Source of the DNA: Phytohabitans rumicis
Lineage (GTDB): Bacteria; Actinomycetota; Actinomycetes; Mycobacteriales; Micromonosporaceae
Assembly (NCBI RefSeq): GCF_011764445.1
Contig: NZ_BLPG01000001.1
Coordinates: forward strand, 2,728,001-2,792,000
Length of the DNA stretch: 64,000 nt
Reading direction: 5' to 3'
The position numbers and the translations under genes are program-made. Below, piece after piece: positions 831 through 60,903 of the stretch. Below the pieces are notes generated by a model. It made no database searches. It was not told where the DNA came from and worked only from the letters and a program-made list of their open reading frames with translations. How positions within the stretch are numbered: the first letter of the stretch is position 1; each line of letters begins with the position of its first letter.

Positions 831-974
831 GCGTCGATCAAGGATCTGCGCGTCGATCAAGGGCAAATGGTCGTGGAAAAGAGATCCAAGCGCGGCCATA
901 TGCCCTTGATCGACGGGAAAGTCCTTGATCGACGCGGGACGGGCCTTGATCGACGCGGGAAGAGCCTTTGATCG
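831..974. repeat. GATCAAGG repeat cluster with a 57-nt palindrome (copy 1)
   Basis: The core is an imperfect 57-nt palindrome at 855-911 running from GATCAAGGGC to GCCCTTGATC. It is flanked on the left by one, and on the right by three, extra units of the form CGTCGATCAAGG or its reverse complement, spaced about 19-21 nt apart. With the 64-nt element and operator-like sites it fills the 433-nt gap between the exporter and the LacI gene. No gene was seen in that gap. Confidence 0.85.
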
Positions 975-1084
975 GGCCCGAACACGGGCGCATGGCACCA
1001 GCGCTGCGCCGATCCACAGTGGACCAATCAGGGGTTTCGATCGGCTTACCGAAATGTTTCCGTAGCGGACTTGACACACCCGTG

Positions 1085-1116
1085 GGTAACCGTGAACATG
1101 CCTGTTAACGTGAACA
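1085..1116. promoter_or_regulatory. LacI-type operator pair upstream of the first regulator
   Basis: TGTTAACGTGAACA at 1103-1116 and the related GGTAACCGTGAACA at 1085-1098 resemble the TGTTAGCGCTAACA palindromes found elsewhere in this island. They lie 24-55 nt before the regulator start. This fits autoregulation of the regulator, which is an inference from position and similarity. Confidence 0.55.
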
Positions 1117-1139
1117 CCCACAGAACAGGCCCTAGACAT

Positions 1140-2186
1140 ATGCCCGAGCGACGCTCCGACAACGGCAAGCCGTCCACGTCTCGCGGCGTACGGCGAGCGG
1201 TCGGGATGGTCGATGTCGCCCGCCTCGCCGGAGTGTCTCACATGACGGTGTCCCGGGTCATCAACGATCAACCGACCGTCAGCCAGGTGACCCGCCAGCG
1301 GGTGCTCGCCGCGATGAACGAGCTGGGCTACCGGCCCAACATCGCGGCCCGCGCGCTGGTGACCGGCCGGACCCGCACGCTCGGCGTGATCTCCATTGAC
1401 ACCACGCTCTACGGGCCCGCGTCGATGCTGCTCGCCATCGAGCGCGCCGCCCGCGACATCGGGTACGCCATCAGCATCGCCAGCCTGCCCAGCGTCGACC
1501 GGCGGTCGTTCGGCGACGCGTTCGAGGCGCTGATGGCGCAGGCGGTCGAGGGGATCATCGCGATCACCCCGCATGTGGCGACCACGGCGGCCCTGCGGCA
1601 CGTGCCCAAGGACGTGCCCGTCGTGGCGGTCGAGGGTGGCAAAGGCCCGCTGCCGACGGTGGCCGTCGACCAGCAGCACGGCGCCCGCCTGGCCACCGCT
1701 CATCTGCTGTCGCTCGGCCACCGCACCGTGGCGCACATCGCCGGACCCATCGACTGGCACGAGGCCCAGGAGCGCGAGCGCGGCTGGCGCGACGTGCTCC
1801 TCGCCGAGGAACGGGAGGTGCCTGACGTCGTACGAGGAGACTGGAGCCCGCGTTCCGGGTACGTGGCCGCGCGCAGCCTGCTCGACCGGCCGGACCTGAC
1901 CGCCGTCTTTGTCGCCAACGACCAGATGGCGATCGGCGCGCTCCGGGCGTTCGGCGAGGCCGGCGTCGACGTGCCCCGCCAGGTCAGCGTGGTGGGCTTC
2001 GACGACATCCCGGAGGCGGAGTTCTTCTCGCCCCCGCTGACCACGCTCCGGCAGGAGTTCGGCGAGGTGGGCAGGCAGAGCCTCGACCTTCTCATGGAGC
2101 AGGTCGACGGGGCACCCCGCACCCGCCGCCGCGTCGTGATCCCGCCCGAGTTCGTGATCCGCGATAGCACCCAAGCGCCCGAGTGA
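1140..2186 (+). CDS. LacI-family transcriptional regulator of arabinose utilisation
   Basis: A 348-aa LacI/GalR-type DNA-binding repressor. The N-terminal HTH reads MVDVARLAGVSHMTVSRVIN at about residues 23-42. It is followed by the hinge (ARALVTGRTRTLGVIS) and a periplasmic-binding-like effector domain with the conserved VFVANDQMAIGAL and VSVVGFDDIPEAEFFSPPLTT blocks. I chose the ATG at 1140 because an in-frame start further upstream (1071) would run through operator-like palindromes. No strong Shine-Dalgarno is visible, so the start is moderately certain. The gene lies immediately upstream of araB and the encoded repressor probably binds TGTTAGCGCTAACA-type sites in this locus, sensing L-arabinose or a related sugar. 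Effector identity is inferred from context. Confidence 0.88.
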   Translation: MPERRSDNGKPSTSRGVRRAVGMVDVARLAGVSHMTVSRVINDQPTVSQVTRQRVLAAMNELGYRPNIAARALVTGRTRTLGVISIDTTLYGPASMLLAIERAARDIGYAISIASLPSVDRRSFGDAFEALMAQAVEGIIAITPHVATTAALRHVPKDVPVVAVEGGKGPLPTVAVDQQHGARLATAHLLSLGHRTVAHIAGPIDWHEAQERERGWRDVLLAEEREVPDVVRGDWSPRSGYVAARSLLDRPDLTAVFVANDQMAIGALRAFGEAGVDVPRQVSVVGFDDIPEAEFFSPPLTTLRQEFGEVGRQSLDLLMEQVDGAPRTRRRVVIPPEFVIRDSTQAPE

Positions 2187-2209
2187 CGATCCCCCGCGAA
2201 GGACATTTG

Positions 2210-3886
2210 ATGAGCTCAGCTGTTAGCGCTAACAACACCGATCGGTACGTCATCGGCGTGGACTACGGGACCCTGTCCGGGCGGGCCCTCGTCGTCCGCG
2301 TCGATGACGGTGCCGAGGTGGGTACGGCCGTGCACGAGTACCGGCACGGCGTCATCGACCGCACCTTGCCCGCGACCGGCGAGGCGCTCCCGCCGGACTG
2401 GGCCCTGCAGGATCCCGAGGACTACCTCGAGGTGCTGCGTACCGCGGTGCCCGCCGCGATCGCCGCCGCCGGCATCCACCCGGCCAGCGTGATCGGCATC
2501 GCCACCGACTTCACCGCCTGTACGGTGCTGCCCGCGCTCGCCGACGGCACCCCGCTGTGCACGCTGCCCGACCTGGTGGGGCGCCCGCACGCGTACCCGA
2601 AGCTCTGGAAGCATCACGCGGCCCAGGGCCAGGCGGACCGGATCAACGCGCTGGCGCACGAGCGCGGCGAGCCCTGGATCAACCGGTACGGCGGCAAGAT
2701 CTCCTCGGAGTGGCAGTTCGCCAAGGGCCTGCAGCTGCTGGAGGAGGACCCGGAGGTCTACGCCCGCGCCGAGCGGTGGATCGAGGCGGCCGACTGGATC
2801 ATCTGGCAGCTGTGCGGCGCCGAGACCCGCAACGTCTGCACCGCCGGTTACAAGGGCATCTTCCAGGACGGGCAGTACCCGAGCGCCGAGTACCTGGCCG
2901 CGCTCAACCCGGACTTCGCCGGCTTCGTGGCGAAGATCGAGCACCCGCTGCTGCCGCTCGGCGCCCGCGCCGGCGGGCTCACCGCGGAGGCCGCCGCCTG
3001 GACCGGCCTGACCGAGGGCATCGCGGTGGCCGTCGGCAACGTCGACGCGCACGTCACCGCGCCCGCGGCGCAGGCCATCGACCCGGGCCAGATGGTCATG
3101 ATCATGGGTACGTCGACGTGCCACGTGATGAACGGCGAGACGCTGGCCGAGGTCCCCGGCATGTGCGGCGTGGTCGAGGGCGGCATCGTCGCCGGCGGGT
3201 ACGGCTACGAGGCGGGCCAGAGCGGCGTCGGTGACATCTTCGCCTGGTTCGTCGACTCGTCGCTGCCGGCCGAGTACGGTGCCGAGGCCGAGCGGCTCGG
3301 CGTCTCCCCGCACGAGTACCTGAGCGGGCTGGCCGCGGCGCAGCGGGTCGGGCAGCACGGGCTCGTCGCGCTCGACTGGCACAACGGCAACCGGTCGGTG
3401 CTGGTCGACCACGAGCTGTCCGGCGTCATCGTGGGCCAGACGCTGGCCACCAAGCCGGAGGACACGTACCGGGCACTGGTCGAGGCCACCGCGTTCGGCA
3501 CGCGGACGATCGTCGACGCGTTCGAGGGCTCGGGCCTGCCGGTCCGCGAGCTGGTCGCGGCCGGCGGCCTGCTGAAGAACGCCTTCCTCATGCAGTTGTA
3601 CGCGGACGTCACCGGCCGGCCGCTGTCGATCCTCGGCTCGGAGCAGGGGCCCGCGCTCGGCTCGGCGATCCACGCGGCGGTGGCCGCCGGGGCGTACCCG
3701 GACGTGCCGGCCGCGGCGGCGGCGATGGGCCGCGTGCAGCGCCGCGTCTACGAGCCCGATCCCGAACGGGCCAAGGCGTACGACGCGCTGTACGAGGAAT
3801 ACCGCCTCCTGCACGACTACTTCGGGCGCGGGACGAACGACGTCCTGCACCGCCTGCGCAAGATCCGGAACGAGGCAACCAAGTGA
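2210..3886 (+). CDS. araB: L-ribulokinase
   Basis: Cytoplasmic FGGY-family kinase that phosphorylates L-ribulose to L-ribulose-5-phosphate, step two of bacterial arabinose catabolism. The N-terminal phosphate-binding motif IGVDYGTLSGRA lies near residue 15. The family-specific GGKISSEWQFAK, MIMGTSTCHVM and VAAGGLLKNAFLMQLYAD segments are present, and the 558-aa length is typical of AraB. The ATG at 2210 has GAAGGA upstream; a GTG at 2183 overlaps the regulator stop but has no ribosome binding site. It starts 23 nt after the LacI gene and overlaps araD by 4 nt (GTGA), so the two are translationally coupled. Confidence 0.96.
   Translation: MSSAVSANNTDRYVIGVDYGTLSGRALVVRVDDGAEVGTAVHEYRHGVIDRTLPATGEALPPDWALQDPEDYLEVLRTAVPAAIAAAGIHPASVIGIATDFTACTVLPALADGTPLCTLPDLVGRPHAYPKLWKHHAAQGQADRINALAHERGEPWINRYGGKISSEWQFAKGLQLLEEDPEVYARAERWIEAADWIIWQLCGAETRNVCTAGYKGIFQDGQYPSAEYLAALNPDFAGFVAKIEHPLLPLGARAGGLTAEAAAWTGLTEGIAVAVGNVDAHVTAPAAQAIDPGQMVMIMGTSTCHVMNGETLAEVPGMCGVVEGGIVAGGYGYEAGQSGVGDIFAWFVDSSLPAEYGAEAERLGVSPHEYLSGLAAAQRVGQHGLVALDWHNGNRSVLVDHELSGVIVGQTLATKPEDTYRALVEATAFGTRTIVDAFEGSGLPVRELVAAGGLLKNAFLMQLYADVTGRPLSILGSEQGPALGSAIHAAVAAGAYPDVPAAAAAMGRVQRRVYEPDPERAKAYDALYEEYRLLHDYFGRGTNDVLHRLRKIRNEATK
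2221..2234. promoter_or_regulatory. Operator TGTTAGCGCTAACA inside the 5' end of araB
   Basis: Perfect 14-nt palindrome beginning 11 nt after the first base of the araB start codon. Identical copies occur at 4687, 16333 and 21279. A site at this position would act as a roadblock or overlap an internal promoter in the 3' end of the regulator gene. Confidence 0.7.
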
Positions 3887-4542
3887 GCATCAGCGTGAAG
3901 CAACTGCGGGAAGACCTGGTCGGGCTGCACGACCAGCTGATCAGGTGGGGCCTGGTCGTCTGGACGGCCGGAAATGTCTCGGCCCGCGTCCCGGGCGAAG
4001 ACCTCTTCGTGATCAAGCCCAGCGGGGTCTCGTACGACGATCTGACGCCCGAGTCGATGGTCGTGTGTGACCTGGACGGCAATCTCGTCGAGGGCGACCT
4101 GTCCCCGTCGAGCGACACGGCGGCGCACGCGTACGTCTACCGGGCCATGCCGGAGGTGGGTGGCGTCGTGCACACCCACTCGACGTACGCGACGGCGTGG
4201 TCGGCGCGGGGCGAGGCGATCCCGTGCGTGCTCACCGCGATGGCCGACGAGTTCGGCGGGGAGATCCCGGTCGGCCCGTTCGCGTTGATCGGCAACGACG
4301 ACATCGGCCAGGGCATCGTGGCGACCCTTTCCGGGCACCGCTCTCCGGCCGTGCTGATGCGCAATCACGGGGTCTTCACCATCGGCAAGAGCGCCCGCGC
4401 CGCGGTCAAGGCCGCGGTCATGTGTGAGGACGTGGCGCGCACCGTACACATTGCGCGGTCGCTGGGCCCGCTCATCCCGATCGAACAGTCCGATGTGGAC
4501 AAGCTGTACGACCGGTACCAGAACGTATACGGACAGCGTTAA
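3883..4542 (+). CDS. araD: L-ribulose-5-phosphate 4-epimerase
   Basis: Class II aldolase/adducin-family epimerase that converts L-ribulose-5-P to D-xylulose-5-P, feeding the pentose phosphate pathway. It is 219 aa with the family motifs TAGNVSAR (about 25-32), the zinc-binding VVHTHSTYA block (about 91-99) and MRNHGVFTIGKS (about 160-171). The GTG start overlaps the araB stop codon by 4 nt and has CGAGG just upstream. It is followed by a 220-nt gap that contains operator-like sites, so the transporter genes probably also have their own promoter. Confidence 0.95.
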   Translation: MSISVKQLREDLVGLHDQLIRWGLVVWTAGNVSARVPGEDLFVIKPSGVSYDDLTPESMVVCDLDGNLVEGDLSPSSDTAAHAYVYRAMPEVGGVVHTHSTYATAWSARGEAIPCVLTAMADEFGGEIPVGPFALIGNDDIGQGIVATLSGHRSPAVLMRNHGVFTIGKSARAAVKAAVMCEDVARTVHIARSLGPLIPIEQSDVDKLYDRYQNVYGQR

Positions 4543-4543
4543 A

Positions 4544-4557
4544 TGTGAGCGATCACA
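4544..4557. promoter_or_regulatory. Operator-like palindrome TGTGAGCGATCACA
   Basis: Two nucleotides after the araD stop. It resembles the TGTGAGCG half-site of the LacI operators near 16081-16197, and also a CRP-type TGTGA/TCACA pair with a short 4-nt spacer. Which protein binds it, if any, cannot be told from sequence. Confidence 0.35.
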
Positions 4558-4686
4558 TCGCGCTGAACACCGTCGTTGCGCGTCTGTTACCAAAGTTATT
4601 GCCGGGATTCCGGGCCAGAGATCGGAGCGCCGCTCGTTACAAGACCGTGACACCGCGATGTCCAGTGAGGGTCTTGACGGGAGATT

Positions 4687-4700
4687 TGTTAGCGCTAACA
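4687..4700. promoter_or_regulatory. Operator TGTTAGCGCTAACA upstream of chvE
   Basis: Perfect copy of the island's palindrome, 63 nt before the GTG start of the sugar-binding protein gene. This is the expected position for repression of the transporter promoter. Confidence 0.75.
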
Positions 4701-4762
4701 CTGTGCCTCGGTGTTACCTGCGGCGTCAGGCAATGGCACCGGTTCCTGGAAGGGGAGAGCCT

Positions 4763-5902
4763 GTGAGCAAGAGGTTTTTGGTCGCTCTTGGCGGCGTCGC
4801 GCTGGCGCTGAGCCTGGCAGCGTGCGGCGGCGAGGGCGCCGGCAGCGGCGACAGTGGCAGCAGCGGGGAAAAGCCCGCTGACCTGACCATTGGCGTGTCG
4901 ATGCCGACGCAGACGTCGGAGCGGTGGATCGCCGACGGCAAGTCGGTGAAGGAGAAGCTGGAGGCGAAGGGCTACAAGGTCGACCTGCAGTACGCGGGTG
5001 ACGACATCCCGACCCAGTCGCAGCAGGTGGACCAGATGATCACCCAGGGCGCGGACGTCCTGATCATCGCCGCCATCGACGGTACGGCGCTGAGCAGCCA
5101 GCTGCAGGCAGCGGCCGACAAGAAGATCCCGGTCATCGCCTACGACCGGCTGATCCGCGACAGCAAGAACGTCGACTTCTACGTCAGCTTCGACAACTAC
5201 AAGGTCGGCGTCGCCCAGGCCAACGCGCTGCTGGTCGGCCTCGGCCTGCTGAAGGAGGACGGCTCGAAGGGCACGGCCACCGGGCCGTTCAACGTCGAGC
5301 TGTTCGCCGGGTCGCTGGACGACAACAACGCGCACTTCTTCTTCAGCGGCGCGATGGACACCCTCAAGCCGTACCTGGACAGCAAGACGCTCGTGGTCAA
5401 GTCGGGCCAGACGAAGATCGAGCAGGTCGCGACGCTGCGCTGGCAGCAGGAGACCGCGCAGAAGCGCATGGAAGACCTGCTGACCAAGAGCTACAACGAC
5501 GGCACCAAGGTCCAGGGCGTGCTCTCGCCGTACGACGGTCTGTCCCGCGGCATCATCACCGCGCTGCAGAACGCCGGGTACGGCAAGGGCTCCGCGATGC
5601 CGCCGGTGACCGGCCAGGACGCCGAGATCGCGTCCGTCAAGCTCATCAACGACGGTGTCCAGAGCTCGACGATCTTCAAGGACACCCGTCTGCTGGCCGA
5701 GCAGGCCGTGATCGCGTCCGAGGCGTTCCTGCAGGACAAGACGCCGACCGCCAACGACAGCAAGACGTACGACAACGGCGTCAAGGTCGTCCCGTCGTAC
5801 CTGCTGCCCGTCGTGACGGTCTACAAGGCCAACATCCAGAAGGAGCTCATCGACTCCGGCTACTGGACGGCCGAGGAAGTCGCGGCCGGTCAGGCCAAGT
5901 AA
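4763..5902 (+). CDS. chvE: ChvE-type multiple-monosaccharide ABC transporter binding lipoprotein
   Basis: Secreted lipoprotein that captures monosaccharides and delivers them to the MmsA-MmsB importer. A signal peptide ends in the lipobox LSLAACGG, with the lipid-anchored Cys near residue 22. The mature part matches ChvE closely by eye: GVSMPTQTSERWI, YAGDDIPTQ, IAAIDGTALS, YDRLIRDSKNVDFYVSFDN, LSPYDGLSRGII and GVKVVPSYLLPV. The GTG at 4763 is preceded by GGAAGGGGAG; an in-frame reading starting much further upstream would overlap araD and the operator. It is the first gene of the chvE-mmsA-mmsB importer. ChvE proteins bind arabinose, galactose and glucose among others; arabinose is inferred here from the neighbours. 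Confidence 0.94.
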   Translation: MSKRFLVALGGVALALSLAACGGEGAGSGDSGSSGEKPADLTIGVSMPTQTSERWIADGKSVKEKLEAKGYKVDLQYAGDDIPTQSQQVDQMITQGADVLIIAAIDGTALSSQLQAAADKKIPVIAYDRLIRDSKNVDFYVSFDNYKVGVAQANALLVGLGLLKEDGSKGTATGPFNVELFAGSLDDNNAHFFFSGAMDTLKPYLDSKTLVVKSGQTKIEQVATLRWQQETAQKRMEDLLTKSYNDGTKVQGVLSPYDGLSRGIITALQNAGYGKGSAMPPVTGQDAEIASVKLINDGVQSSTIFKDTRLLAEQAVIASEAFLQDKTPTANDSKTYDNGVKVVPSYLLPVVTVYKANIQKELIDSGYWTAEEVAAGQAK

Positions 5903-5974
5903 GGCGCGGGATCGGGCTCGGTGGTGATGTCCGCCGCCGGGCCCGATCCCCTTCCATGCAAGAGGAGAACCGCC

Positions 5975-8760: not shown

Positions 8761-8800
8761 CGGCCGTCTACGGGGCAACGTTCTTTCAGAAGGGACCGCA

Positions 8801-10311: not shown

Positions 10312-10364
10312 TGATCAAGGCGTCCTTCAAGTCGTTATAGCGACTTGAAGGACGCCTTGATCAC
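10311..10364. terminator. 54-nt palindrome, probable bidirectional terminator (copy 1)
   Basis: Perfect 24-nt arms (10311-10334 and 10341-10364) with a 6-nt loop. The arms begin GTGATCAAGGCGTCCTTC. The element contains the last base of the araA stop codon and the whole stop codon of the convergent GH43 gene, so it sits exactly between two transcription units. There is no U-tract. A second copy with identical arms is at 24680-24733. Confidence 0.85.
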
Positions 10365-11941
10365 GAAGTGGATGGTGCGAGAGAGAAGTAGTCGAAGTCG
10401 GCCGCCACGCGGGTGCCGGTCAGGTCGTGGGCGCAGAGGCCGACGAGCGTGCCGGTGAAGCGCAGCCCGGAGCCGTAGTCGTCGGACAGCTTGACCGTCT
10501 CCAGCGGCGGGCCCACCTCGTGCCAGGTGACGCCGTCCGGGGACGCGGCGAACCGCACCTCCGTGGGCTCGATCCGGGCGCGCAGGTGGATGACGTCCCA
10601 ATCGGCCACGCCGAGCTGGGCGCCGACCGGCTCGGCGTACCGCCCGTCGTCGGTCAGCGCGACGCCGACCACCGGGCCGAGCCGCTCGTCCCGGGTCACC
10701 CGCAGGTAGAAGTGCGTGCTCGCGTCGTACCAGAGGATGAGCCCGGCCGCCTGCGTGCCGTCGGTGGGCGCGAACCGCAGGCAGGTCGTGGCCTGCATGG
10801 GCAGCGCCCGCAGGCGCCGGGCCACCAGGCTGTGCGCGAAGAGCGAGTGCGGGCTCTGCCGCCCGCGCAGCCGCAGCCAGCCGGGGTGTTCGGTGAGGCT
10901 GGCCCAGGACTCGTCGATCGGCCCGCGCGGCGCGACCCACGCCGGATCGAGTGCCGGGCCGTCGAAGTCGTCCCGCTCCGGCTCCGCCGCGCCCGCCATG
11001 GCCCCAGCCCCGACCGGGCCGGGCACCGCCAGCGCGGGACGGTTTCCGCCGCCGGCCAGCCGCAGCCAGCCGTCGGACGCCCACTCCACGCGCTGGATGC
11101 AGGTTTCCCGACCGAGTACGCAGTACCGGCCGGCCGGCGTGACGACCGGGCGGCTCGCCAGGTGGGCGAGGAACCACTCCCCCTCCGGCGACTCCACCAG
11201 CTCGCCGTGGCCGGCCTTCTGCAGCGGTACGGACTCGTCGTCCCGGGTGGTGAGCAGCGAGCCCCGCGGGTCCACTTCGTACGGTCCTTCGATGGACCGG
11301 GACCGGGTCATGAGGACGCCGTGGTTCCAGCCGGTGCCACCCTCGGCGAGCATCAGGTAGTACCAGCCGTCGCGGCGGTAGAGGTTCGGGCCCTCGATCA
11401 GCGTCTCCTGGCGCAGGATCGTGCGGACCGGACCCACGAGCGCGCGCTTGTCGTGGTCGTACTCCTGCAGGATGATCCCGGCGAACGACGGGTGCGCGGG
11501 GCGGTGGTCCCAGCGCATCTGCACCAGCCAGCGGCGGCCGTCCTCGTCGTGGAAGAGCGACGGGTCGAAGCCGGTCGCGTTGAGAAAGACCGGCTTCGAC
11601 CACGGCCCGGTGATGTCCGGCGCGGTGATGAGGTAGTTGTCGACGTCCTTGAACGCCGGCGTACGGGTGTGCACCACGCTGTAGATCAGCCAGAAGAGCC
11701 CGTCGTGGTGGCTCAGCGAAGGCGCCCACACGCCGGCCGAGTCGGGCACGCCGCGCAGGTCCACTTCGGACGGATCGGTGAGCGCGTGCCCGATCAGCCG
11801 CCAGTTCGCCAGGTCGGTGGAGTGGTGGATCGGCACGCCCGGAAACCACTCGAAGGTGCTCGACGCGAGGTAGTAGTCCACCCCGACCCGCAGGATCGAC
11901 GGGTCGGGGTAGAAGCCGGGCAGTACTGGATTGCTGATCAC
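10361..11941 (-). CDS. Glycoside hydrolase family 43 beta-xylosidase/arabinofuranosidase
   Basis: A 526-aa hydrolase of xylo- or arabino-oligosaccharides, probably cytoplasmic because no signal peptide is present. It begins ISNPVLPGFYPDPSILRVG, where the Asp of YPDPS is the family's catalytic base. It then has STFEWFPGVPIHHSTDL, VWAPSLSHHDGLFWL and LIEGPNLYRRDGWYYL (Glu, catalytic acid). The C-terminal 200 residues form the concanavalin-like domain typical of GH43 beta-xylosidases. I chose the GTG at 11941 because it reproduces the usual N terminus; reading further upstream would overlap the preceding gene. It is the last gene of a three-gene GH43 operon. Arabinosidase versus xylosidase activity cannot be settled by eye. 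Confidence 0.9.
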   Translation of the reverse strand: MISNPVLPGFYPDPSILRVGVDYYLASSTFEWFPGVPIHHSTDLANWRLIGHALTDPSEVDLRGVPDSAGVWAPSLSHHDGLFWLIYSVVHTRTPAFKDVDNYLITAPDITGPWSKPVFLNATGFDPSLFHDEDGRRWLVQMRWDHRPAHPSFAGIILQEYDHDKRALVGPVRTILRQETLIEGPNLYRRDGWYYLMLAEGGTGWNHGVLMTRSRSIEGPYEVDPRGSLLTTRDDESVPLQKAGHGELVESPEGEWFLAHLASRPVVTPAGRYCVLGRETCIQRVEWASDGWLRLAGGGNRPALAVPGPVGAGAMAGAAEPERDDFDGPALDPAWVAPRGPIDESWASLTEHPGWLRLRGRQSPHSLFAHSLVARRLRALPMQATTCLRFAPTDGTQAAGLILWYDASTHFYLRVTRDERLGPVVGVALTDDGRYAEPVGAQLGVADWDVIHLRARIEPTEVRFAASPDGVTWHEVGPPLETVKLSDDYGSGLRFTGTLVGLCAHDLTGTRVAADFDYFSLAPSTS

Positions 11942-11952
11942 GATCTTGTACG

Positions 11953-13440: not shown

Positions 13441-13454
13441 GCTCTCCTCTTCTC

Positions 13455-16394: not shown

Positions 16395-17384
16395 GTGCTC
16401 AGGAAGATATCGATGATCCTCATCGCTGGCGTGCTGGCCGCCCCACTGGCGGCGTGCGGCGGCGACGGCGACTCCGCCAGTTCAGGTTCAGGCAACAGCG
16501 GCGACGACAAGATCGTTCTTGGCTTCTCTCAGGTCGGCGCGGAGAGCGGCTGGCGTACGGCCAACACCAAGTCCATTCAGGACTCGGCGAAGGAGGCCGG
16601 CATCGAGCTGAAGTTCTCCGACGCGCAGCAGAAGCAGGAGAACCAGATCAAGGCGATCCGGTCGTTCATCCAGCAGAAGGTCGACGTCATCGCGTTCTCG
16701 CCGGTCGTCGAGTCGGGCTGGGACACCGTCCTCAAGGAGGCCAAGGACGCGGGCATCCCGGTCATCCTGACCGACCGCGCGGTCGACTCGCCGGACACGT
16801 CGCTCTACAAGTCGTTCATCGGTTCGGACTTCGTGGTCGAGGGCGAGCGGGCCGGCGACTGGCTGGTCAAGGAGTACGCCGGCAAGACCGAGCCGGTGAA
16901 CATCGTCGAGCTGCAGGGCACCACCGGTTCGGCCCCGGCGAACGACCGCAAGAAGGGCTTCGCCGACAAGATCGCCGCCGCGCCGAACCTCAAGATCATT
17001 GCCTCGCAGACCGGTGACTTCACCCGGGCCAAGGGCAAGGAGGTCATGGAGGCGTTCCTGAAGGCGCACAGCGACATCGACGTGCTCTACGCCCACAACG
17101 ACGACATGGGCCTGGGCGCGATCGAGGCCATCGAGGGCGCCGGCAAGAAGCCGGGCGTCGACATCAAGATCATCACTGTCGACGCGGTCAAGGACGGCAT
17201 GCAGGCGCTCGCCGACGGCAAGATCAACTTCATCGTCGAGTGCAGCCCGCTGCTTGGCCCACAGCTCATGGAGCTGGTCAAGAAGGTGAAGGCCGGCGAG
17301 GCCGTGGAGGCTCGGATCCTGACCAACGAGACCACCTTCACCCAGGAGCAGGCCAAGGCCGCCCTCCCGACCCGCCAGTACTAG
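16395..17384 (+). CDS. ytfQ: YtfQ-type furanose-sugar ABC transporter binding lipoprotein
   Basis: A 329-aa secreted lipoprotein whose lipobox is APLAACGG (Cys near residue 20). The mature domain strongly resembles E. coli galactofuranose-binding YtfQ: VGAESGWRTANTKS, LKFSDAQQKQENQIKAIRSF, VVESGWDTVLKEAKDAGIPV, GDWLVKEY, VELQGTTGS and SGDFTRAKGKEVME-like text near residue 210. GTG 16395 has GAGGAGAG 6 nt upstream. It is the first gene of a ytfQ-ytfR-ytfT-yjfF set but is separated from ytfR by 285 nt carrying a palindromic repeat. In this locus L-arabinofuranose is the likely cargo, which is an inference. Confidence 0.92.
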   Translation: MLRKISMILIAGVLAAPLAACGGDGDSASSGSGNSGDDKIVLGFSQVGAESGWRTANTKSIQDSAKEAGIELKFSDAQQKQENQIKAIRSFIQQKVDVIAFSPVVESGWDTVLKEAKDAGIPVILTDRAVDSPDTSLYKSFIGSDFVVEGERAGDWLVKEYAGKTEPVNIVELQGTTGSAPANDRKKGFADKIAAAPNLKIIASQTGDFTRAKGKEVMEAFLKAHSDIDVLYAHNDDMGLGAIEAIEGAGKKPGVDIKIITVDAVKDGMQALADGKINFIVECSPLLGPQLMELVKKVKAGEAVEARILTNETTFTQEQAKAALPTRQY

Positions 17385-17417: not shown

Positions 17418-17500
17418 GTCGATCAAGGGCAAACGGTCGTGGTTGGATCTCCGATCCGCAACCATTTGCCCTTGATCGGCGGGCAATCCCTTGATCGGCG
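17418..17500. repeat. 57-nt palindromic element (copy 2) inside the ytfQ-ytfR gap
   Basis: Core at 17421-17477 (GATCAAGGGC to GCCCTTGATC), followed by one more CCTTGATCGGCG unit. It occupies part of the 285-nt gap between the binding-protein gene and the ATPase gene, where it could reduce read-through so that YtfQ is made in excess over the membrane components. Nothing else gene-like was seen in the gap. Confidence 0.85.
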
Positions 17501-17669: not shown

Positions 17670-19192
<1,523 letters not shown>

Positions 19193-19196
<4 letters not shown>

Positions 19197-24679: not shown

Positions 24680-24733
24680 GTGATCAAGGCGTCCTTCAAG
24701 TCGTTGGAGCGACTTGAAGGACGCCTTGATCAC
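24680..24733. terminator. 54-nt palindrome, probable bidirectional terminator (copy 2)
   Basis: 24-nt arms identical to the element at 10311-10364 (24680-24703 and 24710-24733), with a different 6-nt loop (TTGGAG). It lies between the convergent stops of the GH51 gene (24663) and the Spo0M-like gene (24741). Confidence 0.85.
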
Positions 24734-29810: not shown

Positions 29811-30137
29811 CGTCGATCAAGGTCTGGCTGCGTCGATCAAGGACTTCCGCGTCGATCAAGGGCTTGCTCGCCGATCAAGGACGAATGGTCGCGCTTTGAT
29901 CTCCAAACCACGGCCATATGCCCTTGATCGACGCAGAAGTCCTTGATCGACGCAGCCAGGCACGGACGGACGAGCAGGCCGGGACGGGCGGGGACAGGGC
30001 CGGACCGGGCGCGACAGACCCACGCGCGGCGGACGTCGATCAAGGGCTTGCTCGCCGATCAAGGGCATATGGCCGTGCTTTGATCTCCGATCCACGGCCA
30101 TATGCCCTTGATCGACGCAGAAGTCCTTGATCGACGC
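29811..30137. repeat. Large GATCAAGG repeat cluster with two 57-nt palindromes (copies 3 and 4)
   Basis: The cores are at 29873-29929 and 30057-30113. The second has perfect 21-nt arms (GATCAAGGGCATATGGCCGTG and its complement) around a conserved asymmetric centre CTTTGATCTCCGATC. At least seven further GATCAAGG half-units surround them. It fills most of the 510-nt space between two minus-strand genes, and several spurious reading frames cross it. I see no gene in it. Confidence 0.88.
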
Positions 30138-30208: not shown

Positions 30209-30541
30209 TTAGGCGGCGAGGGATTGGACGACCAGGTCGTCGCGGCCCAGGGCGCGGGCGATCTCGTTGACCACCCGCTGGTCGGCGGTGAGGGAGCGAG
30301 CCGGCAGGCGGTCGCTGCGGCTCTCCCGGCGCAACACGAAGTAATGGACGGCCGCTCGTACGCGGGCCCGGTCGGCGGCACTGGCCCGGGTGGTGCTGAC
30401 GATCAGCTCACGGAGGCTGGTGGCGAGCCGCTCGGCCAACGTCAGGTCATGGCCGGTCCGGCCGGACAGCCGCAACAGCACCAGGTGGCGCTCCACCTGG
30501 TGTACGAGTACGTCCGTATCGTGCTGAAATCCACGCATCAC
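30209..30541 (-). CDS. Conserved-looking small hypothetical protein
   Basis: A 110-aa predicted soluble, helical protein (QHDTDVLVHQVERHLVLLRL; LAERLATSLRELIVSTTRAS; VRAAVHYFVLRRESR). I do not recognise a named family. AGGGGGA precedes the ATG pair (30541/30538), and codon use looks coding. It is divergent from the Lhr helicase gene, sharing a 155-nt upstream region with it. Confidence 0.65.
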   Translation of the reverse strand: MMRGFQHDTDVLVHQVERHLVLLRLSGRTGHDLTLAERLATSLRELIVSTTRASAADRARVRAAVHYFVLRRESRSDRLPARSLTADQRVVNEIARALGRDDLVVQSLAA

Positions 30542-47342: not shown

Positions 47343-47457
47343 CAATCAAGGACGCGTCGATCAAGGGCTTGTGCGTCGATCAAGGGCAAATGGCCGTGGA
47401 TCGGAGATCAAAGCACGACCGTTCGCCCTTGATCGGCGGGAAAAGCCTTGATCGAAC
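47343..47457. repeat. 57-nt palindromic element (copy 5) with flanking GATCAAGG units
   Basis: Core at 47378-47434. Its centre (GATCGGAGATCAAAG) is the reverse complement of the centre of copy 4, so this copy is inserted in the opposite orientation. It lies in the 303-nt gap between clgR and cinA, where nothing else gene-like is seen apart from the clgR promoter region. Confidence 0.85.
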
Positions 47458-47492
47458 GGCAGGGGACGCTGTGGCCCGGGGGGCGGAGGGGG

Positions 47493-47978: not shown

Positions 47979-47997
47979 GCCGTGGGAACGAAGCGCA

Positions 47998-50117: not shown

Positions 50118-50149
50118 CCGAGGGTACCGGGTGAGGGACGATCTGCTGC

Positions 50150-51403: not shown

Positions 51404-51531
51404 ACTATCCCACCAAAACGGGCGGATCCGCGGGCGGCTGGGTAGCCTGGACGGCAGGCGGCGCCACTCGCGACCGCCCCGGACGAGAGCGCTGCCGTAC
51501 CCGGTCCAGCAAAGACGGCGCGCAGACGGCC

Positions 51532-51780
51532 ATGACCCTCACTTTTATCGAGGTCGGCGGCTCGCTGCTGATCCTCGCCGCGTTCGCCGCCACCCAGTTG
51601 GGGCGGCTGGATGCCCACTCCCCGACGTACCTGGTGCTCAACGCCGCCGGCTCCACGGTGCTGGCGGTGATCGCCATCGCACACTCCGCCTGGGGCTTCC
51701 TCCTCCTGGAGGCCACCTGGGCGGTGGTGTCCACGGTCGCCCTGGCCGCTGGACGTTTTCCCCGCGATCGTGGCGAGTAG
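51532..51780 (+). CDS. Small CBU_0592-like membrane protein
   Basis: An 82-aa protein with three predicted transmembrane segments (FIEVGGSLLILAAFAATQL; YLVLNAAGSTVLAVIAIA; WGFLLLEATWAVVSTVALAA). The pattern is typical of small CBU_0592-type proteins of unknown function. ATG 51532 has no strong ribosome binding site. It lies between the oxidase and helicase genes on the same strand. Confidence 0.8.
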   Translation: MTLTFIEVGGSLLILAAFAATQLGRLDAHSPTYLVLNAAGSTVLAVIAIAHSAWGFLLLEATWAVVSTVALAAGRFPRDRGE

Positions 51781-51877
51781 ATCTCAGGTAGGCTGGGTTA
51801 CTTCCACGTCGATCCCCGACCTGCCGCGGCCCCATGGCCTGGGCGTACAGGGCGGCCCTGCTACGTTCGGAGACTTC

Positions 51878-53308: not shown

Positions 53309-53317
53309 TCCCGCCGA

Positions 53318-53772: not shown

Positions 53773-53776
53773 CGCA

Positions 53777-54409: not shown

Positions 54410-54426
54410 TCATTGACAATAGAGCC

Positions 54427-56862: not shown

Positions 56863-57016
56863 AGGATCACACGGTAGCGTCGAGGATCGGCGAATCCTCG
56901 CTTTTGGCAGCGTGTCTGGGGTCTTAACCGACAGTTGGCGTGGCCGTCGTATCGTGCCCCGCGTACTTGACGTAACCCGGTCTCAAGGGCACCAAGAACC
57001 GAAGGGAATTTCTCGC

Positions 57017-57451
57017 ATGCCATCCGACGGCGAGGTGCAGACCCTCGCGCCGCTGACGAACGAGCTGATCGCGGCCGTGCTCAGCGCCCGTGGATACAAC
57101 TTCGGCACCGACGACGATGGCGACATCGGCGGGATGTGGGACGACAACCTCATCTACTTCTTCCGGCGCGGCTCGAAGGGCGAGATGCTCCAGGTCCGCA
57201 CGCTCGCCGCGACGGAGTTCACGGTCGACGACGTGCCGCGGCTGTACGCGTTCTGCAACGAGTGGAACCACGATCGGCTGTGGCCCAAGGCGTTCGTGCA
57301 CGTCAACGACGACGGCACGGTCCGGGTCTTCGGCGAGGTCACCACCGACCTGGAGCGCGGCGTGTCGCAGGGCCAGCTCGACCAGCTCCTCGGCTGTGGC
57401 ATCTCCACCGGCTGCCAGCTCGCCGAGGCCGCGGCGGGGCTCAAGGCGTGA
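57017..57451 (+). CDS. YbjN-domain protein (first)
   Basis: A 144-aa YbjN-like protein, a fold related to secretion chaperones. It has LIAAVLSARGYNFGTDDDGDIGG, FFRRGSKGEMLQVRTLA, YAFCNEWNHDRLWPKAFVHV and VTTDLERGVSQGQLDQLL. ATG 57017 follows GAAGGGA. The stop overlaps the HSP90 gene start (GTGA). It shares its core with the C-terminal domain of the gene at 59225, so two YbjN proteins bracket one HSP90. Function unknown; client delivery or adaptor is a plausible guess. Confidence 0.88.
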   Translation: MPSDGEVQTLAPLTNELIAAVLSARGYNFGTDDDGDIGGMWDDNLIYFFRRGSKGEMLQVRTLAATEFTVDDVPRLYAFCNEWNHDRLWPKAFVHVNDDGTVRVFGEVTTDLERGVSQGQLDQLLGCGISTGCQLAEAAAGLKA

Positions 57452-59214
57452 TCGAGCACCGGTTCCAGGTCGACCTGCGCGGCGTCGTCGACCTGCTCAG
57501 CCACCATCTGTACGCGAGCCCGCGGGTCTACGTACGCGAGCTGTTGCAGAACGCCACCGACGCGATCACCGCACGGCGCGCCGCGGAGGAAGACCCGCCC
57601 GCGGGCCGCGTGGTCATCGAACCGCTGCCCGACGGCGCGCTGCGGGTCACCGACAACGGGATCGGCCTGACCGAGGAGGAGGTGCACACGTTCCTCGCCA
57701 GCGTCGGGCGCACGTCCAAGCGCGACGACCTGGGCTTCGCCCGGCAGGACTACCTCGGCCAGTTCGGCATCGGGCTGCTGTCCTGCTTCATGGTCGCGGA
57801 CGCCATCGAGGTCGAGTCCCGTTCCGCCAAGGGTGGGTCCGGGGTGAGCTGGACCGGGTACGCGGACGGCCGTTATACGGTGGGCACGGCGGACGCCGCG
57901 GACGTCGGCACGACCGTTACCCTGCGCCCGCGCGCCGGCGTCGAGCACTGGCTCACTCCCGAGGCCGTGCGCGATCTCGCGTCGTCGTACGCGCATCTGC
58001 TGGACGTCGAGGTGACGGTGAGTGGCCAGCGGATCACGGAGCCGCAGGCTCCGTGGGAGGTCGCGCACGACGATCCGGAGGTACGGCGGGCCGCGCTCCT
58101 CGACTACGGCGCGCGCGTGCTCGGCAGCCGCCCGATGGAGGTCATCGACCTGAACGTGCCCGAGGCGGGGCTGCGTGGCCTCGGCTTCGTGCTGGCCTCG
58201 CCCGCGGCGGTGGGCCAGGGCGGGCACCGGGTCTACCTGAAGCGGATGCTGCTCAGCGAGGACGCCAGCAAGCTGGTGCCGGAGTGGGCGTTCTTCGTCC
58301 GGTGCGTGGTCGACACGAGCATGCTGCGGCCGACCGCGAGCCGCGAGGCGCTGTACGAGGACGACCTGCTCTCCACGGTGCGCGAGGGGCTCGGCGAGCA
58401 GATCCGCAACTGGCTGCTGGACCTGTCGGTCAACCACCCCGAGCGGCTGGCCGCGTTCCTGCGCGTGCACCACCTCGGCGTCAAGGCCCTGGCGGTCCGC
58501 GACGACGAGATGCTGCGCCTGGTCGACGCGTGGCTGCCGTTCGAGACGAGCCGGGGCACGATGGCGCTGCGGACGTTCCGCCGCGGCATGTCGATGATCC
58601 GGTACGTCGAGACGGTCGACGAGTTCCGCTCGCTGGCCGCGATCGCCAGCGCGGCCGGTACCCCGGTCGTCAACGCCGGGTACGCCTACGACACCGAGAT
58701 CCTCGAACGGCTGTCCAGGGTGGACCCCGACGCGCGGGTGCGCCGGCTCGACCCGGGTGAGCTGGCCGCGAAGCTCGACCCGCTCCCGCCCGGCCAGGAG
58801 GAGGCGGTCGCGCCGTTCCTGGAGACCGCCCGCGCCGTGCTGCGCGAGCTGGACTGCGTGCCGCTGATCCGCCAGTTCGACCCGGTGAGCATGCCGGCCC
58901 TGTACGTGATCAGCCAGAAGGCCCGCACCCAGGACACCGTGCGACGCAGCATCGAGGCGGTCGACGACCTGTGGTCCGACGTGCTGTCCGCGTTCGACGA
59001 CGTGACCGTGGAGCACCGGCCGGAGCTGGTCTTCAACTGGCGGCACCCGCTCATCCGCAAGCTCACGTCGTACCCGCCCGGGCCGGCGCTGCGGCACGCC
59101 GTGGAGGCGCTGTACGGCCAGGCCCTGCTCGCCGGGCACCATCCCTTGCGCGCGGTGGACACCGCCGCGCTGAACCGATCCTTCCTCGCACTGCTAGACC
59201 GAGCCTTCCCCTGA
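57448..59214 (+). CDS. HSP90-family chaperone
   Basis: A 588-aa HtpG-related protein. The GHKL ATPase N domain has ELLQNATDAI (Glu31, Asn35, Asp38), RVTDNGIGLTEEEV (about 67-80) and DYLGQFGIGLLSCFMV (about 101-116). The middle domain includes SMLRPTASREALYEDD with a candidate catalytic Arg. It is shorter than E. coli HtpG (624 aa) and its C-terminal dimerisation region is diverged. GTG 57448 overlaps the upstream YbjN stop. Middle member of a YbjN-HSP90-YbjN operon. Confidence 0.92.
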   Translation: MIEHRFQVDLRGVVDLLSHHLYASPRVYVRELLQNATDAITARRAAEEDPPAGRVVIEPLPDGALRVTDNGIGLTEEEVHTFLASVGRTSKRDDLGFARQDYLGQFGIGLLSCFMVADAIEVESRSAKGGSGVSWTGYADGRYTVGTADAADVGTTVTLRPRAGVEHWLTPEAVRDLASSYAHLLDVEVTVSGQRITEPQAPWEVAHDDPEVRRAALLDYGARVLGSRPMEVIDLNVPEAGLRGLGFVLASPAAVGQGGHRVYLKRMLLSEDASKLVPEWAFFVRCVVDTSMLRPTASREALYEDDLLSTVREGLGEQIRNWLLDLSVNHPERLAAFLRVHHLGVKALAVRDDEMLRLVDAWLPFETSRGTMALRTFRRGMSMIRYVETVDEFRSLAAIASAAGTPVVNAGYAYDTEILERLSRVDPDARVRRLDPGELAAKLDPLPPGQEEAVAPFLETARAVLRELDCVPLIRQFDPVSMPALYVISQKARTQDTVRRSIEAVDDLWSDVLSAFDDVTVEHRPELVFNWRHPLIRKLTSYPPGPALRHAVEALYGQALLAGHHPLRAVDTAALNRSFLALLDRAFP

Positions 59215-59224
59215 CGGAGAACTC

Positions 59225-60793
59225 ATGACCAGCCTGCCCGACCTGCGGGACGCCCTCGACGAGGCCGAAGACATGCCGGACGGCGACGGCAAGATCGCCG
59301 AGCTGGAGCGCATCACCGCGCACGCCGACGCCGCGGGCGACACCCGGCTCGCGTACGACGCCCGGATCCAGCTGATCGACGCGTACAACAACCACACCGA
59401 ACGGTGGCGGATGCTGCCCGCGTTCGGCTGGTGCCTGGCCACGTTCGACCGCGATCCGTCCATGTTCGACGACTGGGACGCCGAGCAGCTGCGCTGGTAC
59501 CACAAGTGGGCGGTCGCGACGCTGCGCAGCACGCCCCGGGTGGGCCTGGCGCAGACGGTGGCCGCGCTCGACGACATGGAGCGGCGCTTCCGGGCCGGCG
59601 GCCACAGCATGCAGACCATCTACAACCTCCGCTGCAAGATCGCCGACCACGTCGGCGACCAGGCGGAGGCCCGCCGGTGGTTCGACCAGTGGCGTACGGC
59701 CGAGCGCGACGAGAACAGCGACTGCGCCGGCTGCGACCCGTCCCGGCAGGCGGAGATGCTCGCCGGATGGGGCGAATGGGAAGAGTCGCTCAAGACCGTC
59801 GAGCCGGTGCTGAGCGGTGTGCTCGGGTGCGCCGAGCAGCCCGAGAAGGCGCTCGTCTCGGTGCTCATGCCGTACCTGCGGCTGGGCCGCTACGACGACG
59901 CCGCCCGCGCGCACGTGCGGGCGTACCGGCGGCACAAGCACGAGCGGGACGCGTTCCCCTACCTGGCCGAGCACATCCGGTTCTGCGCGCTGACCGGCCA
60001 CGTGGACCGCGGCCTCGACATCCTCGCCGAGCACCTGAGCTGGCTGGACCGGCCGTTCGACGAGTCGTCCGCGATGGAGTTCGCGGCGTCCGGCGTGCTG
60101 GTCTGCCGGCTGGCCGGCGACTCCGACCGGGTCATCCACCGGCCGTCGTTCGAGAGCCGCCCCGAGGCCGACCTGACCCTGGCGCAGCTCGGCAACGACC
60201 TCGCCGCCACGGCGCGCCAGATCGCGAGCCAGTTCGACGCCCGCAACGGCACCGACCACCAGTCCCGCCGGATCGCGCTCTGGATGTCGGCCGAGCCCAT
60301 CACCGACGGGATCGAGTTGCCGCCGGACCGGCCCACCTCGACGTGGGACCCGGAGGTCGGGCTGCCGCCGGAGGGCCGGGACGAGGTGGTCGAGCCGCTG
60401 AACGTGCAGGCCATCACCGCGATCCTGGACGACCGCGAGGACCGGTACTTCGTGGACGAGGACGGCTCGATCGGCGGTCAGTGGGGCAAGGGCTCGTTCA
60501 CGTTCGACCGGATGGGCGAGCGCGGCGAGATCCTGCACGTACGGGTGATCGCCCAGCGCCGGCTCCCCGCCGACCGGCTCATGGAGGCGTACGCGTTCTG
60601 CAACGCCTGGAACCACGACAAGCTGCTGCCGAAGGCGTACGTGCACGACACCGGGGAGGGTGAGCTGATCCTGGCCGGCGACATCACCACCGACCTGGAG
60701 TACGGCGTGGCCGCGCCCCAACTGGCGGTCCTCCTGCACGCCGCGATCGTGACCGGCGCCCAGTTCGCAGACGAGGTCATGCAGCTCCCTTAG
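59225..60793 (+). CDS. TPR-like/YbjN-domain protein (second)
   Basis: A 522-aa protein. Residues 1-350 are helical and TPR-like (RIQLIDAYNNHTERWRMLPAF; LAGWGEWEESLKTVEPVL; YLRLGRYDDAARAHVRAYRR; SCAGCDP-like NSDCAGCDPSRQ). Residues about 385-522 are a YbjN domain with ITAILDDREDRYFVDEDGSIGG, YAFCNAWNHDKLLPKAYVHD and ITTDLEYGVAAPQLAVLL, paralogous to the gene at 57017. It starts 10 nt after the HSP90 gene. TPR repeats commonly bind HSP90 tails, so an HSP90 co-chaperone role is plausible but unproven. Confidence 0.87.
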   Translation: MTSLPDLRDALDEAEDMPDGDGKIAELERITAHADAAGDTRLAYDARIQLIDAYNNHTERWRMLPAFGWCLATFDRDPSMFDDWDAEQLRWYHKWAVATLRSTPRVGLAQTVAALDDMERRFRAGGHSMQTIYNLRCKIADHVGDQAEARRWFDQWRTAERDENSDCAGCDPSRQAEMLAGWGEWEESLKTVEPVLSGVLGCAEQPEKALVSVLMPYLRLGRYDDAARAHVRAYRRHKHERDAFPYLAEHIRFCALTGHVDRGLDILAEHLSWLDRPFDESSAMEFAASGVLVCRLAGDSDRVIHRPSFESRPEADLTLAQLGNDLAATARQIASQFDARNGTDHQSRRIALWMSAEPITDGIELPPDRPTSTWDPEVGLPPEGRDEVVEPLNVQAITAILDDREDRYFVDEDGSIGGQWGKGSFTFDRMGERGEILHVRVIAQRRLPADRLMEAYAFCNAWNHDKLLPKAYVHDTGEGELILAGDITTDLEYGVAAPQLAVLLHAAIVTGAQFADEVMQLP

Positions 60794-60822
60794 CTTGCGC
60801 GGGCCGCAGGCCCTTCTTGCGG

Positions 60823-60903
60823 GTCGATCAAGGGCAAACGGTCGTGGTTTGATCTCTAATCCGCGACCGTTTGCCCTTGATCGGCGTGGAAATCCTTGAT
60901 CCG
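60823..60903. repeat. 57-nt palindromic element (copy 6) overlapping a gene 3' end
   Basis: Core at 60826-60882 with a 19-nt perfect stem (GATCAAGGGCAAACGGTCG and complement), then one CCTTGATCCGCG unit. It lies 33 nt after the YbjN stop. On the minus strand it supplies the last ~15 codons and the stop codon of the DUF2784 gene. Confidence 0.88.

Follow-up and report, generated by a model that had tools for sequence, protein, structure and literature searches.

A fixed-length palindromic element family at gene ends in Phytohabitans rumicis and its relatives, possibly acting as a two-way transcription stop

Phytohabitans rumicis and its relatives in the Micromonosporaceae carry an abundant family of intergenic palindromes with fixed spacing between two inverted arms, C-rich flanks, and a position close to gene ends; the arms are conserved at orthologous sites and, in most of the copy sets, vary nearly independently of each other. 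In the explanation that fits best, to which we give a little less than even weight, these are selected two-half-site elements that act as two-way transcription stops at gene ends and are copied by an unrecognized enzyme; we infer the trans-acting protein, the termination, and the involvement of Rho. REP-like repeats are often interpreted as RAYT-driven hitchhikers. An abundant REPIN-format family that is apparently selected, close to gene ends, and without Y1 in most tested carriers makes it testable whether such palindromes are parasites or part of how transcription ends in GC-rich actinobacteria.

Six copies in the window

The window, the whole 64,000-nucleotide stretch of P. rumicis DNA that was analyzed, contains six 57-nt cores, all bounded by GATCAAGG...CCTTGATC. 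A scan with the end pattern (≤3 mismatches over 16 end bases) returned seven matches, the six exact cores and one 3-mismatch match at 11598, and shuffled windows gave a mean of 0.08 matches (maximum, 1), confirming both the coordinates and the claim of an earlier note that six copies of constant length do not arise by chance. The asymmetric center described there also holds and gives the copies an orientation, those starting at 17421, 29873, 30057, and 60826 pointing one way and those at 855 and 47378 the opposite way. All six copies have an outer half-unit at a distance of exactly 19 nt from the core, on the side following the GATCTC center; among genome copies this side is occupied in 62/64 and the opposite side in 29/64. 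Extra half-units had been reported near every copy, which is correct for the 19-nt unit and not for the exact 12-mer CGTCGATCAAGG, in place of which copies 2 and 6 carry CCTTGATCGGCG and CCTTGATCCGCG forms. The unit that repeats is closer to 84 nt long (CGYC, the 57-nt core, GRCG, 7 nt, and CCTTGATCGRCG; 64 copies); nearly all 64 genome copies have CGYC at the left end and the complementary sequence at the right.

Copy 1 (855 to 911, minus strand; PWM score 94 of 112) has an outer GATCAAGG half-unit 19 nt away on the near-obligatory side (836 to 843, plus strand) and two more CCTTGATC half-units on the other side (923 to 930 and 944 to 951, minus strand). Copy 2 (17421 to 17477, plus strand) lies 36 nt past the stop codon of a gene for a sugar-binding protein (called at 16413 to 17384) and precedes an ABC ATPase gene (called at 17670 to 19196); its outer CCTTGATC half-unit is at 17489 to 17496 (minus strand). 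Three outer GATCAAGG half-units starting at 29815, 29835, and 29854 (29815 to 29861, plus strand) precede copy 3 (29873 to 29929, plus strand), which has a further outer half-unit at 29941 to 29948 (minus strand). Copy 4 (30057 to 30113, plus strand), with outer half-units at 30038 to 30045 (plus strand) and 30125 to 30132 (minus strand), is on the 3' side of a gene called at 30209 to 30541 (minus strand), and in four Micromonospora species a 54-nt version lies 3' of a gene that appears to be the same one, an equivalence judged by reading the sequences. Copy 5 (47378 to 47434, minus strand) has outer half-units at 47359 to 47366 (plus strand) on the near-obligatory side and at 47446 to 47453 (minus strand) on the other. 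Copy 6 (60826 to 60882, plus strand; outer half-unit at 60894 to 60901, minus strand) is 32 nt past the stop of a YbjN-domain gene (59225 to 60793) and overlaps the end of a gene called at 60856 to 61263 (minus strand) by 27 nt.

Copy number, spread, and fixed length

The P. rumicis genome has 564 matches of 55 to 59 nt in intergenic DNA, and a congener has 413, in which, among the copies listed, the symmetric palindromic stem is spelled differently. Other relatives carry 54- to 58-nt versions, presence is patchy between species, and by the patterns used the counts in relatives drop to tens or zero. The earlier note had taken a scarcity of further copies as an argument against its reading; with hundreds here and kin in relatives, that argument falls away. 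More than 500 similar copies, together with re-spelled versions of near-equal length behind the genes of relatives, look like a maintained gene-end signal. One 57-nt query had no match in plasmids, and no description of the family was found in the open-access literature, with papers containing its 8-mer partly covered.

When lengths of 40 to 70 nt are allowed, 68 of 69 copies (counted from the listing) in three Micromonospora-like genomes are 54 or 55 nt and one is 47 nt, and 67/67 copies in M. chokoriensis and M. noduli are at the fixed length. By one search pattern, M. noduli has 39 copies and M. chokoriensis 28. The spacer is free in the Micromonospora-like genomes, and in P. rumicis the length is fixed and the center partly conserved. 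The P. rumicis statistics cover 864 kb of 10.7 Mb and use a home-made gene caller; in these 864 kb there are 66 copies, 64 scoring at least 90 of 112 bits and two at 62 and 69, with none scoring 10 to 60. The same 864 kb have no lone inner half-sites above 20 of 41 bits, and outside the elements there are six weak half-site matches of 16 to 20 bits (maximum, 41), compared with two in a reversed control. These copies do not have the appearance of mobile remnants in decay.

Mobilization

The suggestion of a REP-like mobile palindrome stands insofar as this is a genome-wide, REP-like intergenic family, and is unsupported as to a RAYT-type mobilizer. Nine of the 11 pattern-bearing genomes, P. rumicis among them, have no Pfam Y1_Tnp match; the search covered the Y1 family, and the control for the P. 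rumicis search gave matches in 5 of 14 genomes. The three matches in the other two carriers have no GATCAAGG within loci of 1.7 to 3.4 kb. RAYT mobilization as a simple answer was rejected on both counts.

A selfish REPIN-type element, copied in trans by a non-Y1/RAYT-like transposase and best tolerated after genes, would have its arms conserved for mobilization, and its spread would explain copy number and patchiness. We consider this somewhat unlikely. At some syntenic gaps between P. rumicis and its congener the element is present in one genome only (empty sites inspected by eye), facing neighbor copies are more alike than random pairs (3.45 versus 5.90 of 16 variable sites; P = 0.00025; 11 pairs), and neighbors within 1.2 kb include tandem pairs (3 FF and 2 RR), all as a selfish element would have it. 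Speaking against it are the missing Y1_Tnp, the sites shared by descent between two species, where the arms have been retained and the near flanks have not (see below), and the lack of both decayed copies and lone half-sites in 864 kb, unlike REP singlets, which the available text of PMC8049555 describes as usually decaying remnants. The F..R pairs (12 within 1.2 kb, compared with no R..F pairs) were also considered as composite-transposon ends and set aside, as the DNA between them shares only patches, except at one locus pair (∼480 nt); we read these patches as other palindrome families.

The format itself is shared with REPINs, which in the available text of Bertels and Rainey (2011; PMC3116915) consist of inverted conserved 16-mers with a diverse spacer and a perfectly conserved distance, and the likeness extends to extragenic location, hundreds of copies, and hairpin formation; the combination of fixed distance and diverse spacer is that of the Micromonospora-like genomes. 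Unlike REPINs, the element is without Y1/RAYT in 9/11 carriers and, in 864 kb, without decayed copies or lone half-sites, has C-rich flanks, and is hosted by Micromonosporaceae. CGTC-tagged REPs, for which no dedicated transposase is reported in the available part of Di Nocera et al. (2013; PMC3733652), are similar in that CGTC adjoins the palindrome and copies lie mainly after genes, in convergent gaps, and as pairs in one preferred relative orientation. They differ in that their stems are 8 to 9 bp and their loops 4 to 5 nt, with a CCA-like tail and a tag that is unpaired and confined to one end, whereas the element has a stem of ∼21 bp, a 15-nt center, and complementary CGYC at both ends; the five phyla named for them in that text do not include Actinobacteria.

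Gene-end position and C-rich flanks

In P. rumicis, 35/66 copies are in convergent gaps, compared with 23% of intergenic length, and in codirectional gaps the element orientation is random relative to the gene (12 versus 13). After retraining of the gene caller, 0/66 copies lie inside genes scoring >60; before retraining, 2/42, with scores of 111 and 38, fell within called genes. In two Micromonospora species, 55 sites were classed, of which 30 are convergent and 2 are divergent, and the median distance from the element to facing stop codons is 27 nt. The convergent bias is not specific, since 29 recurrent palindromes of other P. rumicis families are also mostly convergent (18/29). By the criteria used, a GATC-ended palindrome is within 1.5 kb upstream of Lhr at 8 of 75 loci and absent at 67.

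C exceeds G on both inward flanks at 66/67 elements of two Micromonospora species (C.54/G.19 and.53/.19). The corresponding P. rumicis values are.50/.26 and.43/.32, compared with.36/.33 and.35/.35 at 124 other intergenic palindromes and a milder skew (.39/.31 and.37/.32) at the 29 recurrent palindromes of other families; at 15 loci of the congener a single flank is C-rich (.47/.28) and the other is.37/.36. The flanks are C-rich whatever the gene orientation, including at six divergent P. rumicis sites, and thus belong with the element and not with the gene end.

Bidirectional terminators are comparable in placing a hairpin between convergent genes at a short distance from the facing stops. The element differs from them in being near-invariant, with a fixed spacer, arms that are nearly independent in most sets, and no A-tract or U-tract; in 64 copies the core is followed by GRCG, a purine-rich 7-nt stretch, and then CCTTGATC, with no T run.

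Arm variation and the RNA hairpin reading

Arm covariation was examined in six sets, namely, P. rumicis (48 cores among the matches listed), the congener (30/413), six pooled Micromonospora-like genomes (49 copies), a further genome designated G032 (33/35), M. chokoriensis, and M. noduli; copy sets were chosen by exact end patterns, so their end positions are fixed by construction. Covariation is absent within P. rumicis and in the 30 congener copies, the Micromonospora-like genomes have one weak covarying pair (P = 0.016), M. chokoriensis has matched arm types (P = 0.001) and M. noduli does not, and G032 has strong covariation. RNA covariation is not general, and the arms vary nearly independently in most genomes. 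The stems are largely paired in the copies that the earlier note quoted, as it said, but the pairing carries no covariation, with arms independent over 111 copies (100 distinct). Its alternative of a conserved structured RNA is unsupported in the covariation sense within P. rumicis and its congener, paired variable positions being at independence in both. Rfam at gathering thresholds matched none of the elements, the sole match in the window being a guanidine-III riboswitch at another location. A wobble asymmetry was rejected too: G-T and A-C mismatches are both at independence in P. rumicis (with fewer A-C only at pair 14/44; 10 versus 14.6, P = 0.036), and so no transcribed strand stands out. 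A coding origin, considered from the period-3 spacing of variable stem positions, was abandoned, since in the congener position 17 is invariant (30/30 copies) and position 18 is variable.

These patterns bear on whether the element is simply an RNA hairpin by which transcript 3' ends are generated or protected, in effect a long-stem, GC-rich actinobacterial terminator with little U-tract, which we regard as improbable. Predicted RNA folds of 80-nt stretches at four window copies are stable (−34 to −51 kcal/mol; z, −4.7 to −8.7), and the position after genes and the covariation in G032 are in keeping with a hairpin, as are Streptomyces terminators, described in the available text of PMC12207403 as long stable hairpins with few Us at a median of 66 to 76 nt from the CDS. 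However, a hairpin alone could do without ∼40 near-invariant letters and without a loop length constant to within one base, and it is at odds with the independence of paired positions and of A-C mismatches noted above. Terminator stems of Bacillus cereus undergo compensatory evolution, according to the available part of PMC5381666.

Both arms tolerate the same letters when read inward, each on its own strand, and near-independent arms with mirrored tolerated letters are what is expected of duplex half-sites. A putative protein-binding site is favored by this mirror-image tolerance and by the fixed spacing with free spacer in Micromonospora-like genomes.

A two-way stop and conservation between species

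The preferred explanation, a selected two-way stop, would make this a lineage-specific extragenic palindrome family in REPIN format, with two inverted half-sites of 18 to 21 bp at a fixed distance, each copy being selected, at gene 3' ends, as a recognition site with two arms. From whichever side it came, RNA polymerase would first transcribe a C-rich, G-poor leader able to load Rho (rut-like) and would then stop at the pair of half-sites, which would be either extruded as a hairpin or occupied by a dimeric DNA-binding protein; the element would in this way keep converging genes apart in both directions. A copying enzyme other than a recognizable Y1 (RAYT) transposase would supply new copies, and half-site spelling would change in step across a genome. 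Several observations weigh against this explanation: the random orientation of the element in codirectional gaps, flanks that are C-rich even at divergent sites, the single C-rich flank at the congener loci, the milder skew and the convergent bias of other palindrome families, the arm covariation in G032 and M. chokoriensis, the lack of a U-tract, and the patchy presence between species. Genome-specific spelling with constant format and placement would require a coevolving partner or a homogenizing process. A more particular proposal, which we think unlikely, is that a dedicated new Micromonosporaceae DNA-binding protein uses hundreds of these elements as sequence-specific two-way stops at gene ends, combining a roadblock with Rho-loading flanks, that between species its specificity changes in concert with its sites, and that spacers can flip in place.

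Gyrase binds at BIMEs in E. coli, and the element might by comparison be a site for a chromosome-organizing or supercoil-managing protein between convergent genes. Hundreds of copies, convergent gaps, symmetric half-sites, and extra half-units 19 bp out suit such a role, which we find highly doubtful; counter to it, the search patterns give counts of tens or zero in relatives.

Between two Micromonospora species, selection appears to maintain the sites. At 17 orthologous sites, free arm positions are identical at 260/272 (96%), counting only positions left free by the search pattern at sites matching in both species, and spacers are identical at 207/253 positions (82%) in the 14 noninverted sites. 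Flank identity is 67% at 0 to 40 nt, 66% at 40 to 100 nt, 81% at 100 to 300 nt, and 85% at 300 to 800 nt. The spacer is flipped between the species at some of these sites, with 3/17 called inverted, one of these calls being weak (L209/L261) and one "same" call nearly tied (L211/L255). Chloroplast genomes have hairpin-loop inversions between short inverted repeats, which are similar in the flipping of a spacer between arms from species to species; unlike these, the element is a dispersed bacterial repeat family with a fixed spacer length.

Abundance and anatomy of the 57-nt element

The earlier note had described six copies of an intergenic palindrome in the window, and all six are exact, are 57 nt each, and lie where it placed them (855-911, 17421-17477, 29873-29929, 30057-30113, 47378-47434, and 60826-60882); with up to three mismatches allowed, the end pattern has 7 matches in the window, compared with a mean of 0.08 in shuffled sequences. 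The window corresponds to C1:2728001-2792000 of a genome of 10.7 Mb in 3 contigs. Further copies are found genome-wide, with 564 matches to GATCAAGG-N(39-43)-CCTTGATC in the Phytohabitans rumicis genome (G000), 413 in a congener (G001), and 0 to 5 in each of four other congeners; 10 of the 61 genomes searched, P. rumicis counted, have any match. A scoring matrix applied to 864 kb of P. rumicis finds 66 copies, of which 64 score at least 90 of 112 bits and the other two 62 and 69 bits. None scores between 10 and 60 bits; the control, a reversed 400-kb sequence read on a single strand, peaks at -12.7. No lone inner half-site above 20 of 41 bits was found in the same 864 kb, and the copies seen are thus whole and intact, without a visible series of decay.

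Anatomy was derived from 111 P. rumicis copies (100 distinct), 63 from fetched stretches and 48 among the matches listed, in which the outer 8+8 positions of the core are invariant by design of the search. Most core positions are nearly invariant, and about 16 alternate among a few letters, chiefly by transitions. The recurring string exceeds 57 nt, with CGYC in front of the core and GRCG behind it in nearly all of 64 P. rumicis copies; CCTTGATCGRCG sits 7 nt past GRCG in 62 of the 64, and a matching left-side unit is present in 29. By eye, C-rich tandem repeats often stop exactly at the CGTC abutting the element (left flanks of loci L031-L050 and L166-L185 and in the window), as if the palindrome had provoked local slippage.

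Gene context and C-rich flanks

No copy among the 66 in the 864 kb is internal to a called gene with a score above 60, and three P. rumicis copies extend 27 nt into the end of a called gene. Convergent gaps, which make up 23% of the intergenic length, hold 35 copies, with 25 in codirectional gaps, where element orientation is random (12 versus 13), and 6 in divergent gaps. The convergent bias is partly general, since 18 of 29 other recurrent palindromes in P. rumicis are also convergent. The 67 sites of Micromonospora chokoriensis and M. noduli divide into 30 in convergent gaps, 23 in codirectional gaps, 2 in divergent gaps, and 3 within called genes, the other 9 being unclear; the median distance from the element to facing stop codons is 27 nt, and at 8 gene ends the element begins within the stop codon.

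The P. rumicis flanks, read inward, are C-rich and G-poor (C/G.50/.26 and.43/.32). The flanks of 124 other intergenic palindromes there have C/G of.36/.33 and.35/.35, with a weaker skew at the 29 recurrent ones (.39/.31 and.37/.32). On one side the skew fades by ∼160 to 200 nt, and on the other it is clear to ∼60 nt and weak thereafter to 160 nt. After stop codons in gaps of at least 160 nt, C/G is.445/.288 with the element (65 ends) versus.341/.341 without it (163 ends). In M. chokoriensis and M. noduli the two flanks have C/G of.54/.19 and.53/.19, C exceeding G on both sides at 66 of 67 sites, and four Micromonospora-like genomes have.53/.23 and.51/.24 at 16 loci; at 15 G001 loci a single side is skewed (.47/.28, the other being.37/.36). 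Flanks that differ in sequence and agree in composition are the pattern that selection for a putative rut-like RNA would give. The six divergent P. rumicis copies have the same skew of C over G, which speaks for a property of the element itself irrespective of gene order.

Independence and retention of the arms

Stem covariation, which the earlier note had proposed as a test, fails within P. rumicis: Watson-Crick counts at the five variable stem pairs are at the level for randomly dealt arms (P of 0.09 to 0.87), and the same holds in G001 (30 of 413 copies). In six pooled Micromonospora-like genomes (49 listed copies), one stem pair reaches a P of 0.016 and the remainder are at expectation. 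Pairing is strong at positions 14 to 18 in the relative G032 (33 of 35 copies; overall P of at most 0.0005). Part of this pairing reflects the several stem subfamilies that occur there, and some persists inside its 56-nt class and its 57- to 58-nt class. Arm types are matched in 25 of 28 M. chokoriensis copies (20.1 expected; P of 0.001) but not beyond expectation in M. noduli (26 of 39; 26.8 expected), although two positions there are slightly above expectation (P of 0.02 and 0.03). Our reading is that the arms are separate half-sites, each tolerating its own letters, and that symmetry is held mainly at the family level.

Flanking homology pairs 17 of the 28 M. chokoriensis sites with 17 of the 39 M. 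noduli sites. Only 12 of 272 free arm positions differ, whereas flank identity in aligned columns is 67% at 0 to 40 nt, 66% at 40 to 100, 81% at 100 to 300, and 85% at 300 to 800; the arms are therefore retained while their nearby surroundings are lost. Where the spacers share an orientation (14 sites) they are 82% identical, and at the other three sites the spacer fits better inverted (clearly at L217/L258 and L218/L238, weakly at the third, L209/L261). The spacer upstream of Lhr (L069/L065) is also inverted between the two species, with 17 of 18 letters identical after inversion, a value reached by 0 of 200,000 shuffles. These inversions suggest pairing or recombination between the arms in vivo.

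In four Micromonospora species, a 54-nt element lies at the 3' side of the small gene upstream of Lhr. In the window, the gene at 30209-30541 (-), which we read as the same small gene, has copies on its 3' side as well, at 29873 and 30057, with a different stem. The window Lhr-type helicase has 91% identity to that of P. suffuscus and 90% to that of P. maris (best segments), and 79 to 89% to other Micromonosporaceae among 80 loci kept, which places the host within Micromonosporaceae, close to Phytohabitans. Between P. rumicis and G001, examples rather than a full count include gaps with the element in both (G001 C1:98862, 137704, and 233897) and in one only (G001 C1:67985; G000 C1:4266044 and 4354248).

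Element length in relatives

In a family sample, 29 of 250 genomes match. The same format with other arms is seen in G014 (58 nt), G032 (56 to 58 nt, several stem types), and Micromonospora-like genomes (54 to 55 nt). Six named Micromonospora genomes have 17 to 46 copies each, and the pattern used for them finds 0 in P. suffuscus and P. maris. Among 69 copies in three fully listed Micromonospora-like genomes (permitted range, 40 to 70 nt; the partly listed G232 not counted), 51 are 55 nt, 17 are 54 nt, and one is 47 nt; the M. chokoriensis and M. noduli copies number 57 at 54 nt and 10 at 55 nt. Central letters are near random in the Micromonospora-like genomes, and a constant spacing with free letters speaks for a geometry between two half-sites. 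GAGATC, the conserved center of the 57-nt family, occurs within some of these otherwise random spacers (G146, G258, and G232), hinting at shared descent of the families.

Function and relation to known repeats

We favor a maintained two-armed recognition site at gene ends, a putative two-way transcription stop. The agent of such a stop could be a protein on the duplex, a hairpin in the RNA, or an extruded hairpin; given the fixed spacing and the independence of the arms, we lean toward a putative protein. Streptomyces terminators are reported to be long with few Us (PMC12207403). Facing neighbor copies in P. rumicis resemble each other, a likeness that suggests copying or conversion on a local scale.

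The format is shared with REPINs (PMC3116915 and PMC8049555), but the Y1 (RAYT) transposase was not found in 9 of 11 element-carrying genomes, P. rumicis among them. CGTC-tagged REPs, for which no dedicated transposase is reported, also prefer gene ends, but have stems of 8 to 9 bp and loops of 4 to 5 nt (PMC3733652). We therefore file the element as a variant of the REP/REPIN kind, a member of neither group.

Other palindromes and features

Pairs of GATCAAGG and CCTTGATC spanning 50 nt lie at 10313-10362 and 24682-24731 in the window, consistent with a second palindrome, of 50 nt, that shares the tip; three such pairs occur in the 864 kb. P. maris has palindromes of 54 to 58 nt (L052, 13328 and 20424) with a similar inner part and a different tip. 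By eye, about ten further intergenic palindrome families occur in the 864 kb (e.g., L034 and L178), many of which carry GATC close to the tip (GATCATGAAGTT, GATCTAGACGAG, and GATCAGGGAG) while others do not (AGGAAGGGCCCC), and some are situated between facing 57-nt copies. The window also carries a guanidine-III riboswitch at 51455-51524 (+; Rfam, 39.6 bits, above the gathering score), directly followed by a small called gene at 51532.
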